Source of the DNA: Burkholderiales bacterium
GTDB taxonomy: Bacteria > Pseudomonadota > Gammaproteobacteria > Burkholderiales > Burkholderiaceae_C
Direction of reading: 5' to 3'
Assembly (NCBI GenBank): GCA_017307855.1
Contig: JAFKGD010000008.1
Location: 124,001-188,000 of the forward strand
Length of the DNA stretch: 64,000 nucleotides
Part shown: positions 1-19,692 of the stretch, one piece after another
Numbering within the stretch: position 1 is the first letter of the stretch
Layout: every line of letters starts with the position of its first letter
Program-made: the position numbers and the translations under genes
Notes under the pieces: model-generated
The model's input: the letters and a program-made list of their open reading frames with translations, nothing else
Database searches by the model: none
What the model was told of the DNA's origin: nothing

Positions 1-1323
1 GATCGCTGTGGAAGTGGCGCAGTACTTCACCGGCCGCGCATTCGACCGCTCGCTGCTGGACGACGCCTACATGGTGGCTTCCAACGTGAACGAGAACGAG
101 GGGCGCCTGCAGCTGGACATGTCACAGGGCGAGCTCGACGGCGTCCTGTTCGACCAGGCCGAAGCCATGCTGCTCAAGGTGCAGGCGGGCGATGGCACGC
201 TGGTGGCGGGCCAGGCCGAGCTGCCTTCGCAGCCCAGCGAGGAGACGGATCTGCCCTACCAGTTCCACGACGAGGTGGTGCAGGGCCGTGCCGTGCGCGC
301 GGTCACGCTGCGGCGCGACCAGCCCCAGCCCTTCCTGGTGGTGATGGCACAGACCGACCGCAGCCGCAGCATCATGCTGCGCAACGTGCTGGTCTATGCC
401 ACGGTGCCGCAGTTGCTGCTGCTCACGGGCCTGGCACTGTGGCTGCGCCGTGCCATCGGCGTCGATACCGAGTCGCTCAGCCAGTTGCAGCAGACGGTGG
501 ACCGGCGCGGCGAGGACGACCTCGGGCCCATCCATGTCGATGCCAGCACCAGCGATGTCGCGCAGCTCGGCGAGGCCATCAACTCGCTGCTGGCGCGGCT
601 CTCGCGCAGCCTGGAGGCGCAGCGCGAGTTCGCGGGCAACGTGGCGCACGAGCTGCGCACGCCGCTGGCCGGCATCCGCGCGCTGGCCGAGTACGGGCTG
701 GCGCAGAAGGATCCGCAGGTGTGGCGCACCCAGCTCGAGCGCATCGCCGGCAGCCAGGCGCGCGCCAGCCGCATGGTCGACCAGTTGCTGGCGCTGGCGC
801 TGGCCGACGAGGTGCGCACCGGCCTGCGCCTCACGCCCGTGGCGCTGGATGCGCAGGTGCAGGAGGCGGTGCTCCGGTTCCTGCCGCGCGCCGACGCGGC
901 GGGCGTCGATCTGGGCGCACGCGGCATCGACGCCGCGGTCACGGTGCAGGCGGACGCGATCCTGGTCGAAGGCATCCTCAACAACCTGCTCGACAACGCG
1001 CTGCGCTACGGCCGCCCGGCCGAGGGTGACGCGAGCATCACGGTGGAAGTGTCGCGCGAGGGCGGCGCCGACGGCGCGGTCGTGCTGTCGGTCAGCGACA
1101 ACGGCCCCGGCCTGCCCCCCGACCGGCGCGAAGCACTCACGCAACGCTGGATCCAGGGCGAGGCCGGCGCGTCACTCGGCCATGGATCGGGCCTGGGCCT
1201 GTCGATCGTGACCCAGTACGCGCAGCTGCTGGGTGCGCGCTTCACGCTGGAGGACGTGGCCGGCGGGCCCGGCCTGTGCGCCAGCGTGCGCTTTACGCCA
1301 CCCGCGCCGCGCGAGGGGCGGGC

Positions 1324-1333
<10 letters not shown>
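1..1333 (+). CDS. Two-component sensor histidine kinase, 5'-truncated by the window
   Basis: This is the C-terminal part (about 440 residues) of a membrane histidine kinase of the QseC/TctE kind. The frame is still open at base 2, so the true start and first membrane helix lie outside the window. What remains is a periplasmic sensor segment, a membrane helix (visible residues about 125-146), the H-box [15 protein letters not shown] with phospho-acceptor His214, the N-box [12 protein letters not shown]1 SDNGPGLP and G2 [11 protein letters not shown]. By family it autophosphorylates and passes phosphate to a response regulator, expected just upstream. It is convergent with gcvP, and the two coding ends overlap by 10 bp. 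Confidence 0.9.
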
Positions 1334-4215
<2,882 letters not shown>

Positions 4216-5860: not shown

Positions 5861-5869
5861 TTCGAAAGC

Positions 5870-6062
5870 CCCGCTGTCCGCTTTACCTGAGAGATTCACC
5901 GGCAGATGCCGGCTTGCTCCTTCGGTGGACCGGCTGTGGCGCCGGCCTCTCTCCAGGGGGGAACGCCCGGTGGCCCGGGCGGCTGCCAGTCCTTTTGCCT
6001 GAGCGTTAAGGCGGTGAAGCCTGCGCCTTCGGCGGCCTCCTCGGGGGAGGCTCTCTCCTGAC
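5870..6062 (-). promoter_or_regulatory. Tandem glycine riboswitch
   Basis: Read on the minus strand, the leader of gcvT has two glycine aptamers in a row. Aptamer I opens with GGAGAGAGCC, has CCGAAGGCGC and closes with CTCAGGCAAAAGGAC. Aptamer II has CTGGAGAGAGG, CCACCGAAGGAGCAA and closes with AATCTCTCAGGTAAAG. These are the hallmark conserved stretches of the family. The tandem form binds glycine and usually turns on gcv expression when glycine is abundant, which fits its place directly before gcvTHP. Confidence 0.95.
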
Positions 6063-6069
6063 GTCGGCG

Positions 6070-6075
6070 AGTATA
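6070..6075 (-). promoter_or_regulatory. Probable -10 box of the gcvTHP promoter
   Basis: On the minus strand the sequence TATACT lies 7-8 nt before the first base of aptamer I. Transcription would then begin almost exactly at the riboswitch, as usual for such leaders. No good -35 box is seen at 17 bp, so the promoter may be weak or activator-dependent. Confidence 0.5.
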
Positions 6076-17297: not shown

Positions 17298-17918
17298 CTA
17301 AGCATCCGTCTGTTCGGCCAATTCGAGTGCATCCTCGACTTCGATTCCCAGGTAGCGAACAGTGCTCTCCAGCTTGGTGTGCCCCAGCAACAGTTGCACT
17401 GCGCGGAGGTTCCTGGTGCGCCGGTAGATCAGCGTCGGCTTGGTTCTGCGGATCGAATGCGTGCCGAAGGTCGCCGGATCGAGTCCGATGGCCGAGACCC
17501 AGCCGTGGACGATCCGGGCGTATTGCCGGGTGCACAGATGGGCGCCTGGGCGCGCTCTGCCTGGAAACAGATAGTCCTGCGCGCGCAGCCCCATTGCTGC
17601 GATCCACTGCGCTATCGATGTCCGAGCCGCTTCCGTGATCTCGAACTGGACGGGGCGCTCCGTTTTTTGCTGCATGACGATGGCACGTTGTGCCACGCGG
17701 TCGCCGTGGCAGACATCCTTGACCCTGAGCTTCACCAGATCGCACGCGCGCAGCTTGCTGTCGATCCCGAGGTTGAAGAGCGCCAGGTCACGGGGCTTCG
17801 CCTGAAGCTGCAGCCGAACGCGTATGGCCCAGATATCGCGAAGCCTGAGCGGCGCTTTCTGTCCAACAAGTTTTCCCTTGTTCCAGGGCGCGTGATTGGG
17901 TGTCGAGGCAGTCTCCAT
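17298..17918 (-). CDS. Short tyrosine recombinase/integrase
   Basis: This is a 206-residue tyrosine recombinase of the compact type that starts with PWNKGKLVGQKAPL and is common as a lone gene in Proteobacteria. The catalytic residues are visible: Arg in SKLRACDLVKL, HxxR in THSIRRTK, His in LLGHTKLEST and Tyr in VRYLGIEV. There is no separate arm-binding domain. ATG 17918 has AAGGAGAG 7 nt upstream. It marks the island as mobile or formerly mobile; its own recombination site was not identified. Confidence 0.88.
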   Translation of the reverse strand: METASTPNHAPWNKGKLVGQKAPLRLRDIWAIRVRLQLQAKPRDLALFNLGIDSKLRACDLVKLRVKDVCHGDRVAQRAIVMQQKTERPVQFEITEAARTSIAQWIAAMGLRAQDYLFPGRARPGAHLCTRQYARIVHGWVSAIGLDPATFGTHSIRRTKPTLIYRRTRNLRAVQLLLGHTKLESTVRYLGIEVEDALELAEQTDA

Positions 17919-18033
17919 GTGTTCTCTCCTTGAAAGAGAGCCAGTGTGTCGTTGCCACGCTAGGCATTCGTCGCAACCTCCTGTCGTCTGCCTTCGACCT
18001 TGGCAGGCGCCGACCCCTGCAGTACATTCGCGT

Positions 18034-18113
18034 TGTTCTGCAAAGAACACGGGCTTGGCAGCCCGTCACCACAGGCGCAGCGGCCGCGCCACCCCCATGG
18101 GGCGCGGCTTTTT
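18034..18113 (+). ncRNA. Candidate small RNA ending in an intrinsic terminator
   Basis: Three hairpins follow one another: TGTTCT-GCAA-AGAACA (18034-18049, GNRA-type loop), CGGGC-TTGGCA-GCCCG (18050-18065), and a terminator stem with T-run (18083-18113). No coding frame leads into the terminator on this strand, so an unannotated short transcript is implied. It contains TTGGCAG (18055-18061) and CCACAGG (18069-18075), exact complements of two stretches in the C4-like RNA downstream. The 5' end is not known. Confidence 0.5.
18083..18113 (+). terminator. Intrinsic terminator
   Basis: An 8-bp GC stem (GCCGCGCC / GGCGCGGC) with a 10-nt loop is followed by five Ts. It reads on the plus strand only. 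It separates the upstream segment from the C4-like RNA module. Confidence 0.8.
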
Positions 18114-18139
18114 CATTGCTGCATGACATGGTCCGTTTT

Positions 18140-18236
18140 CGGCGGGCCGTGCGGGACACCCGCGAGGGTGTGCCGGTCCTGTGGCCGGTCTGCCAACCCG
18201 CACGGTCCGCCACCTCTCTTGGCAGGGTGGTGGCGG
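18140..18236 (+). ncRNA. C4-like antisense RNA (phage P1/P7 c4 type)
   Basis: A 9-bp outer stem CCGTGCGGG / CCCGCACGG (18147-18155 with 18197-18205) encloses ACACCC-GCGA-GGGTGT (18156-18171) and a second hairpin around 18173-18188. A terminal hairpin CCGCCACC / GGTGGCGG follows (18207-18236). TCCTGTGG (18177-18184) is an exact complement of CCACAGGA at the Shine-Dalgarno site of the next gene. CTGCCAA (18190-18196) is an exact complement of TTGGCAG in the terminal loop. Two separate antisense contacts on the following ribosome site are the mark of C4 RNAs, and ACACCCGCGAGG with CTGCCAACC fits my memory of that family. Confidence 0.72.
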
Positions 18237-18249
18237 TTTCGATACCGTC

Positions 18250-18257
18250 CCACAGGA
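18250..18257 (+). promoter_or_regulatory. Ribosome site paired by the C4-like RNA
   Basis: CCACAGGA includes the AGGAG Shine-Dalgarno core (18254-18258) of the small gene at 18265 and is exactly complementary to 18177-18184. Pairing would hide the ribosome site. Confidence 0.7.
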
Positions 18258-18264
18258 GCCATTC

Positions 18265-18567
18265 ATGGCTGACACCTCCGCCCGCCGGCAGCGACACAAC
18301 GCTGCTCCTCGTCGTCTCCACGCGAATTCAGCACCGCCAGCCAGCGCGCCCGAGCCTCCCGACCCGATAGCCATCACCCGGTCGGTCCAGTCCGCCGTCC
18401 TGCGCCTGCGCATGACGATCCTCGCGATGAAGTCCGCCGCCGATGGCGAGCATGAGAACCCGCATCACGAGAGGCTGTTCTGGCCCGACCTGATGGACGC
18501 ACTGACCTTGCTGACGCCCGATGCCGACGTGCTCGACGTCGTGGTGGACGAACTGCAACGCGCCTAG
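18265..18567 (+). CDS. Small protein controlled by the C4-like RNA
   Basis: This 100-residue protein has a basic, Pro/Ala-rich N-terminus and a helical C-terminal half (SVQSAVLRLRMTILAMKSAA, FWPDLMDALTLLTPDADVLD). ATG 18265 has CAGGAG at a good distance. It takes the place of the small icd-type gene that follows c4 in P1-like phages, but no antirepressor gene follows; the next gene (RhuM) is on the other strand. A 7-bp hairpin CGCAACG / CGTTGCG lies right after the stop (18568-18592). Function unknown. Confidence 0.65.
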   Translation: MADTSARRQRHNAAPRRLHANSAPPASAPEPPDPIAITRSVQSAVLRLRMTILAMKSAADGEHENPHHERLFWPDLMDALTLLTPDADVLDVVVDELQRA

Positions 18568-18681: not shown

Positions 18682-19692
18682 TCATTTCCTGGGGCGGCGC
18701 TTGATGCGGCTTTCCAGCGCTTGCAGGTCCGCCTCGTCCTGCTGGTCGGCCGCGATGGCTTCCGCCCGTTTGCGGTCCTGGTCGAACTTCACGTACAGCT
18801 CATCCGTGCGCGCTTCCATCTGCTCATGGCTGATGGTGCCGGCATGCGCAAGCAGCGGAAAGCCGTTGGACGTGATGATCTGATCCACGTTCTGCTTCCA
18901 GAAGGCCATGCGCGTCTCTTGCCGGCTCTTGGCCCGCAGTTCGGCGGTTTCCAGGAAGATGACCACCAGCCGGTTCAGGGTGTCGATCTCGTCCTCGGTG
19001 AGGTAGTTCTTGGCCACCACGATGTCGGTCTTGCGCACCTTGTCGCCCTTCCACGCCAGCAGGCCGAAATGCGGATCGGCGGGGTTGGCGCGGGCGGTGA
19101 TGAGTTCGGCGGCAGTCTTGTGCGTCACGGCAAAGATCAGCAGGTTCTGCACGGTGGCGAAGAAGACCTGCGTGGCCTGATCCGTCTTGTCGTAGTCGCT
19201 GGAGAGGGCGAAGAGGTCGCGCACCTTTTGATAGAAGCGCTTCTCGGAGGCGCGGACGTCGCGGATGCGGGCCAGCATCTCGTCGAAGTAATCCGGACGG
19301 CCGTCCGGGTTCTTCAGGCGCTCGTCGTCCATCACGAAGCCCTTGGTCAGGTACTCCTTCAGCACGGTGGAAGCCCAGCGGCGGAACTGCACCCCGCGCG
19401 GTGAGCGCACGCGATAGCCCACGGCCAGGATGGCGTCGAGGTTGTAGAGGGTGACGGGGCGTTGAACCTGACGGCTGCCCTCGATTTGAACTGTCAAGGA
19501 TTCCTTGACAGTTGCCACGGGGTCCAACTCCTCGTCCTCGAAGAGGTTCTTCAAGTGCAGGGAGATGTTCTGCTTGGTGGCATCAAAAAGCTCTGCCATC
19601 TCCAACTGCGTCAGCCAGACGGTCTGGTCCTTCGCCCGCAGCTTGATCTGGCTGCGCCCATCTTCGGTGGTGTAGAGAATCAGGTCGGTCAT
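18682..19692 (-). CDS. rhuM: RhuM-family protein
   Basis: This 336-residue protein has the RhuM layout. The N-terminal region begins ILYTTEDGRSQIKLRAKDQT, with VWLTQLEMAELFDATKQNIS resembling a DNA-binding or KilA-N/Bro-like helix pair, then VTLYNLDAILAVGYRVRSPRG and FRRWASTVLKEYLTKGF, and a long helical C-terminus. RhuM was first named in the Salmonella SPI-3 island and is common on islands and near restriction systems; its biochemical role is not settled. Here it stands alone, without restriction genes, at the right edge of the island. ATG 19692 is used; TACACT 30-35 bp upstream could be a -10 box. Confidence 0.88.
   Translation of the reverse strand: MTDLILYTTEDGRSQIKLRAKDQTVWLTQLEMAELFDATKQNISLHLKNLFEDEELDPVATVKESLTVQIEGSRQVQRPVTLYNLDAILAVGYRVRSPRGVQFRRWASTVLKEYLTKGFVMDDERLKNPDGRPDYFDEMLARIRDVRASEKRFYQKVRDLFALSSDYDKTDQATQVFFATVQNLLIFAVTHKTAAELITARANPADPHFGLLAWKGDKVRKTDIVVAKNYLTEDEIDTLNRLVVIFLETAELRAKSRQETRMAFWKQNVDQIITSNGFPLLAHAGTISHEQMEARTDELYVKFDQDRKRAEAIAADQQDEADLQALESRIKRRPRK

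Follow-up and report, generated by a model that had tools for sequence, protein, structure and literature searches.

The window, by which we mean the whole 64-kb stretch of DNA that was analysed, contains an apparently complete antisense switch of the C4 type, placed before a gene other than an antirepressor. The unit is ordered as promoter, IsrK-like leader with the targets a1/b1, terminator, C4 RNA, a second pair of targets a2/b2, and a small gene. We consider it about 75% probable that C4 blocks translation of this gene via a2/b2 and that the leader, through a1/b1, counteracts C4. The anatomy and the covariation behind this reading are observed, while transcription, RNase P processing, repression, and decoy action would follow from what is described for P1/P7 C4 and related loci. 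Related bacteria attach a C4 switch to many different genes, so the reuse in the window is real but not unique. What is new here is a lineage-specific small protein; its gene occurs three times, with no recognisable prophage around it, and has defence-like neighbours. A literature search, made mostly outside subscription papers and supplements, found no paper on C4 with exchangeable cargo other than antirepressors.

The original prediction was of a C4-like antisense RNA, and the Rfam C4 covariance model (RF01695) matches positions 18135–18217 on the plus strand with 55.8 bits, above the curated gathering cut-off of 45. Two other marks of RF01695 are also present, namely the three-stem fold, in both the MFE and the alignment folds, and the complementarity of a'/b' to a2/b2. 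The MFE fold of 18135–18275 has z = −4.39, and none of 200 shuffles was equally stable. The outer stem in the MFE fold has 15 pairs (18141–18155 with 18197–18211) instead of the 9 bp first described, and the GCGA-capped hairpin (18156–18171) and the second hairpin (18172–18189) inside it both appear as predicted. By analogy with the published P1/P7 and A. baumannii C4 RNAs, processing, which for C4 would be by RNase P to about 77 nt, is expected to set the 5' end at the GG at 18141, which agrees with the C4 processing site given in the available text of PMC5320573.

Both complementarities that had been proposed are exact. The b' element TCCTGTGG (18177–18184) is the complement of b2, CCACAGGA (18250–18257), which lies over the Shine–Dalgarno sequence (AGGAG, 18254–18258) 5' of the ATG at 18265. 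The a' element CTGCCAA (18190–18196), single-stranded in the C4 MFE fold, is the complement of a2, TTGGCAG (18219–18225). All of these lie on the plus strand. By itself, CCACAGGA is unsurprising, with 4 occurrences in 64 kb against 1.95 expected and 14 of 100 shuffles reaching 4. The combination of TTGGCAG, 3–33 nt, and CCACAGG is found three times in 64 kb, with 0.03 expected and no shuffle among 100 reaching 3. All three occurrences are within the C4 module: in a1b1 (18055–18075), in C4 on the other strand (18178–18196), and in a2b2 (18219–18256). RNAcofold of C4 with either target gives zero net gain, loop–loop contacts with a folded C4 being beyond the model of that program.

The module as originally described stands for C4 with a2/b2, and its upstream half, made up of promoter, a1/b1, and terminator, had been overlooked. 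A sigma-70-like promoter (TTGGCA, 17-nt spacer, TACATT) is located at 18000–18028 on the plus strand; the pattern scan found one, with 0.1 expected in shuffles. It is followed on the same strand by a1, TTGGCAG (18055–18061), which is complementary to a' and lies inside the hairpin CGGGCTTGGCAGCCCG, and by b1, CCACAGG (18069–18075), complementary to b'. A terminator-like hairpin with a T-run (−21.1 kcal/mol), found by a hairpin scan at 18082–18113 on the plus strand and absent from the output of one simpler terminator scan, would close an IsrK-like leader RNA of ~80 nt. Among the C4 loci compared, a looser promoter rule is matched in 17 of 49, against 3 of 182 control segments, and 36 of 49 have a terminator-like hairpin after b1 and before C4, against 20 of 182, where the controls are random stretches from the same loci and are mostly coding DNA. 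When the whole leader transcript is folded, the MFE structure pairs all 7 bases of a1 with a' and all 7 of b1 with b', which fits a leader that opposes C4; a2 and the 5' half of b2 are largely unpaired.

The upstream element at this locus works like IsrK but is not classed as IsrK. Over 18034–18114 the isrK model (RF01394) scores 26 bits, under the cut-off of 50, which leaves the element outside that family, and the c4-a1b1 model (RF03163) scores 17.2 bits upstream of C4, under its cut-off of 46.7, though a1/b1 are exactly complementary to C4. The isrK cut-off is reached by none of 30 C4 loci from the same taxonomic family as the host, and the c4-a1b1 cut-off by two of the 30 (L018 and L030). 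A phage record, L091, does reach the isrK cut-off, and it has isrK, c4-a1b1, and C4 adjacent, all above the cut-offs. Such a pairing has also been recorded in bacteria. In Burkholderia cenocepacia J2315, according to the available text of PMC4603805, dRNA-seq places isrK (81 nt, ending in a terminator) in a single transcription unit with C4 (90 nt), located between BCAL2965 and BCAL2965a and ahead of the latter. This unit (ncS23 and ncS24) resembles the one in the window in its terminated IsrK leader followed by C4. For Xylella fastidiosa, a published table (PMC12189769, available in part) likewise has isrK beside C4.

The proposed mechanism is as follows. The single promoter would give a transcript able to stop at the terminator at 18113, leaving an IsrK-like RNA that carries a1/b1. 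Read-through transcripts would be cut, presumably by RNase P, to release C4 (about 18141–18212). The a'/b' elements of C4 would then bind a2/b2 on the small-gene mRNA, hiding the Shine–Dalgarno sequence and turning the gene off. The leader RNA, which has the same targets, could occupy C4 as a built-in decoy, and the gene would be on when the leader exceeds C4. The closest parallels to the leader come from the IsrK–orf45–anrP region of Salmonella Gifsy-1 (RF01394), which shares with the window a short terminated leader RNA, complementarity between leader and downstream RNA, and a read-through transcript that includes a small ORF and yields a processed RNA, features that in the window are read or predicted from the DNA. 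There, orf45 is translationally coupled to the antirepressor anrP, whereas the small gene of the window has no successor on its strand, and the upstream element of the window is under the isrK cut-off. In Gifsy-1, the short IsrK switches translation on in trans via a structural rearrangement, according to the available part of PMC4825925. The same source also reports a different, in-cis structural mechanism for Salmonella IsrK, which we count against the proposed mechanism.

The contacts were compared in two sets of relatives. C4 is present in 28 of 200 genomes of the family, which gave a family set of 50 loci above the cut-off, one partial match (G038:C20, 31.2 bits) of 51 rows being excluded. 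It is matched in 44 of 300 genomes of a second draw, 42 of them above the cut-off; an order set of 28 loci from other families of the order was taken from the best matches after one of 29 new loci (L118) proved to be of the same family. In the family set, the complementarity of each element to its own partner exceeded that to permuted partners for a'/a2 (18.5 vs 13.5), a'/a1 (17.7 vs 13.4), b'/b2 (21.1 vs 14.3), and b'/b1 (18.9 vs 13.8), and for none of the four contacts was the observed value reached in 2000 permutations, which ignore kinship between loci here and in the order set. Target regions and a1 anchors in the family set had been placed by hand on the same data; in the order set, C4 was placed by rule, the whole upstream stretch was used, and three loci (L092, L100, and L114) have cut flanks. 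The order set gave 17.5 vs 13.5 for a'/a2 and 22.2 vs 14.3 for b'/b2, and 18.5 vs 16.0 for a' and 20.5 vs 17.3 for b' against the whole upstream stretch, again with 0 of 2000 permutations for each. Helices of at least 6 pairs are found among the 50 family loci in 49 for a'/a2, 46 for a'/a1, 46 for b'/b2, and 45 for b'/b1, counts that include matches in other registers, L047 for example matching through the ribosome-site consensus only. Seven loci of the family set have no convincing b2 match (L047, L055, L062, L063, L065, L070, and L073); in the order set, L110 and L114 show neither contact, and b2 is missing in L103. In an alignment of 30 C4 sequences, double changes occur at 13 of the 20 predicted stem pairs.

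Judged by these comparisons, complementarity to the ribosome site of the gene has been kept by covarying changes, because own-partner complementarity beats 2000 of 2000 permutations in both sets. The original prediction had named covariation of the stems and of the a/b pairs in homologues as a check to make, and both covary, the stems in 30 sequences and the a/b pairs over 50 and 28 loci. It had also held that a missing C4 match and lost complementarity in homologous loci would speak against it; the match is there and most of the homologous loci keep the complementarity. Selection for orthogonality among the C4 RNAs of one genome was considered and rejected: no pair among 72 within genomes shares both a' and b', but between genomes only 1 of 1153 does.

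In an alternative reading, C4 pairing would chiefly govern termination at 18113 and not ribosome access. The anatomy of target, terminator, antisense RNA, and second target is that of seqA–CI–seqC in P4, where an antisense RNA likewise lies between upstream and downstream targets and, according to the available part of PMC4825925, the CI RNA acts on termination. In most loci, b2 lies on the Shine–Dalgarno sequence, and the mean for b'/b2 is not below that for b'/b1, part of the b'/b2 score stemming from the ribosome-site consensus itself; we regard control chiefly by termination as quite unlikely.

What does the switch control? The gene (18265–18567, plus strand) encodes 100 residues that had been called unrecognised, and searches of Pfam, PHROGs, and PADLOC indeed returned no match. 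Beyond the three copies in its own genome, no relative reached a convincing score in draws of 200 and 399 family genomes, which overlap. Three further matches in family genomes (E 0.002–0.006, one with five stops) were not accepted as relatives. Pattern-based scans, which may overlook distant relatives, gave 31 pattern matches in genome contigs and 38 in viral contigs, none confirmed, and no relative was found in plasmids or phages. Comparison by hhalign of this protein group with 15 other groups of C4-controlled small proteins, a subset of those proteins, found no relationship (all probabilities below 3.3). Our guess, by analogy with P1 Icd, is that the protein is a mobile-element cargo that would be costly if freely made.

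Two further C4 loci are found in the 5.0-Mb host genome, at G000:C11:205709-205791 and G000:C11:247361-247443, and each precedes a paralogue of the small gene, with 55% and 70% identity to the one in the window. By eye, similarity among the three copies starts near the promoter and stops with the gene. The b' elements all differ, being TCCTGTGG in the window and ACTCGTAT and TCCTACGT in the others, and two different a' elements occur (CTGCCAA in the window, CGACCAA, and again CTGCCAA). In each copy, a' and b' are complementary to the targets on both sides of its C4, one upstream contact including a G–U pair. For the three gene pairs, dN/dS by NG86 is 0.21/0.88, 0.33/0.86, and 0.32/0.66, or about 0.24, 0.38, and 0.48, over 71–82 core codons and with dS near saturation. 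YN00 gave 0.27/1.05 for one pair and no value for the other two. With that saturation in mind, dN below dS fits selection on the small protein; the host genus is represented by a single genome among those examined. Many chromosomal C4-like RNAs in a single genome, with a GG processing site, are also known from the Group 1 C4-like sRNAs of A. baumannii, which are expressed. There trans targets have been proposed, whereas here each copy has its own cis target; the available part of PMC5320573 proposes bacterial co-option of the A. baumannii RNAs.

The arrangement had been taken for a special case of reuse, and this is not what the relatives show: in those sampled, C4 before a small gene of unrecognised function is the commonest arrangement. 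First genes after C4 in the family set are mixed in kind. A start was assigned in 48 of the 50 loci, that of L050 (14 codons) looking misassigned and the frames of L047 and L052 being 9 codons, and the scan took in 45 genes of 25 codons or more. Pfam places AntA in four, Bro-N in two, and P22_AR_N, pRha, and KilA-N in one each, or ~9 antirepressors, a sum of alignment-mode counts with members unnamed that agrees with the nine picked by sequence. Six of the 45 match HTH_36 and the replication O-like families of PHROGs, all in genome G038 by clustering, and the remaining ~30 have no Pfam family indicating function. In the order set, 27 of 28 loci have a start and 24 first genes of at least 30 codons were scanned; Bro-N is present in two and ORF6N in one that may coincide with a Bro-N match, giving two, perhaps three, antirepressor-domain genes. 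From these fractions, C4 without an antirepressor is common in these relatives and not exceptional. Half of the first proteins (24 of 48) begin with MAD, 17 of them with MADT, and lack detectable mutual similarity; nine of the 24 come from G038. This shared start across dissimilar proteins suggests that the leader and the first codons may move as a cassette in which the cargo is swapped. Some genomes are rich in C4, with 12 matches in G038, 14 in G495, and 11 in G471; six in G038 precede one replication O-like family. Pseudomonas phage records L090 (225–1094) and L091 (2647–3531) have genes of ~290 codons, annotated as hypothetical, after C4.

In P1, icd is the first gene of the C4-controlled operon, and P1/P7 C4 has a second pair of targets, a1/b1, upstream, which is also in Rfam (RF03163) and is shared with the locus in the window. 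The likeness extends to the three-stem RNA, to a'/b' that pair with a2/b2 at a downstream ribosome site, and to a small gene in the operon, P1 having icd besides ant according to the available text of PMC8198154. The window differs in having no ant, in its three chromosomal copies without a recognisable prophage, and in a protein outside all families searched. That no ant gene follows had been noted before and holds: no P1/P7-type antirepressor was found in the controlled operon, and the next gene downstream is a RhuM-family gene on the opposite strand (18682–19692, minus; best PADLOC match PDC-S05, 2.3e-148). The N-terminal part of the RhuM-family protein has a very weak PHROGs match to the anti-repressor Ant (E 0.065).

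Such a locus could also be what is left of a decayed prophage immunity region, in which an icd-like first gene survives after the loss of ant and of the phage genes and the remainder is kept passively. In P1, c4 and icd do share an operon with ant (PMC8198154, in its available part), and a short Phage_integrase-family gene (17298–17918, minus strand; 206 aa from the ATG used) lies directly upstream of the unit and divergent from it. Around the three loci, 40 hand-picked ORF proteins, not gene calls, had no PHROGs match with a name that refers to structure, packaging, or lysis; the names obtained were integrase, ABC transporter, ATPase, and SbcC-like, and the other matched PHROGs are unnamed. 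On these 40 proteins, none of the three loci has the phage or prophage location of the P1/P7 operon. Broken cargo in some relatives would fit decay as well, with the 9-codon frames of L047 and L052 and no start found in L062 and L073. Against passive retention, each of the three dispersed copies retains a/b pairing that is exact and its own, its reading frame is unbroken, and dN is lower than dS. Moreover, the 20 genes scanned downstream of small first genes at 17 loci include one antirepressor (L064, AntA), so the lack of ant behind a small gene is an established pattern and not a local loss. We hold decay to be rather unlikely and prefer a working switch in which C4 silences the small gene.

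The surroundings of the three copies raise another reading of the unit, as a type I toxin–antitoxin-like module for addiction or abortive infection, in which C4 would be the RNA antitoxin and the protein would inhibit growth or division. All three are near defence-like genes: RhuM (PDC-S05) in the window, bSEFIR at the second locus, and a SIR2-like protein and SoFic at the third. A PIN-TPR-GreABC domain protein is also encoded near the second locus, and a Ham1 protein near the third. P1 Icd blocks cell division, as stated in the available text of PMC8198154. Against this reading, the small protein has no toxin family match and is acidic and not hydrophobic (pI 4.3–5.9, GRAVY −0.41 to 0.09). 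The C4 neighbours in other genomes are mixed (phage, housekeeping, and defence), with terminase, portal, VapE, AbiEii, and transketolase among the families listed; this survey covered 77 hand-picked proteins of 145, and the first 25 of 32 and the first 25 of 67 families. Typical type I toxins differ from the small protein in its acidic, non-hydrophobic character, and we consider a toxin–antitoxin unit unlikely. Given the mixed neighbours elsewhere, the defence neighbourhood of the three loci is an observation only. Near the third unit (L037 7747–9122, minus strand), the SIR2-like gene overlaps the Ham1-family gene, possibly as a two-gene defence operon.

A resident C4 might instead act in trans, giving superinfection immunity by silencing the antirepressor of an incoming phage that shares its a/b sequences, much as P1/P7 heteroimmunity has been ascribed to differences in such sequences (PMC12197685 and PMC5320573, both available in part). 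The specificity pattern of the window's C4 has no exact match in 2.9 million viral contigs. In the contigs of 84,980 genomes, one other true C4 shares its a' and b' core (L086, a MAG contig labelled Rhodobacteraceae), and at this locus (900–1450, minus strand) the C4 precedes another small gene, different from that of the window. Our guess is that the match could be chance among the many C4 loci in so many genomes, and trans immunity of this kind seems highly improbable. An ORF near the L086 C4 resembles what we take to be an AlpA-type regulator. A further candidate for the same specificity, L085, reads as coding sequence without a C4 match and was taken as chance.

C4 is known chiefly as antirepressor control in P1-like phages. 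In this family, a switch with four contacts precedes antirepressors, replication O-like proteins, and many small proteins, its specificity rewritten by covariation, and given these data C4 would be a general, retargetable cassette. The natural specificity variants are a ready set for learning the rules of RNA kissing, and the C4 loci draw attention to small, uncharacterised proteins that are apparently kept silent in their carriers. A bolder extension, which we think very unlikely, is that C4 and its IsrK-like leader form a portable switch that silences diverse cargo in mobile elements or defence regions and is tripped in trans by phage RNA. If so, the matching leader or target RNA of an infecting phage would titrate C4 and release the protein, and the three-copy family of the host would be an RNA-sensed phage-response system. 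Elsewhere in the window, two glycine riboswitch aptamers lie in tandem on the minus strand at 5864–6070 (58.4 and 57.2 bits).
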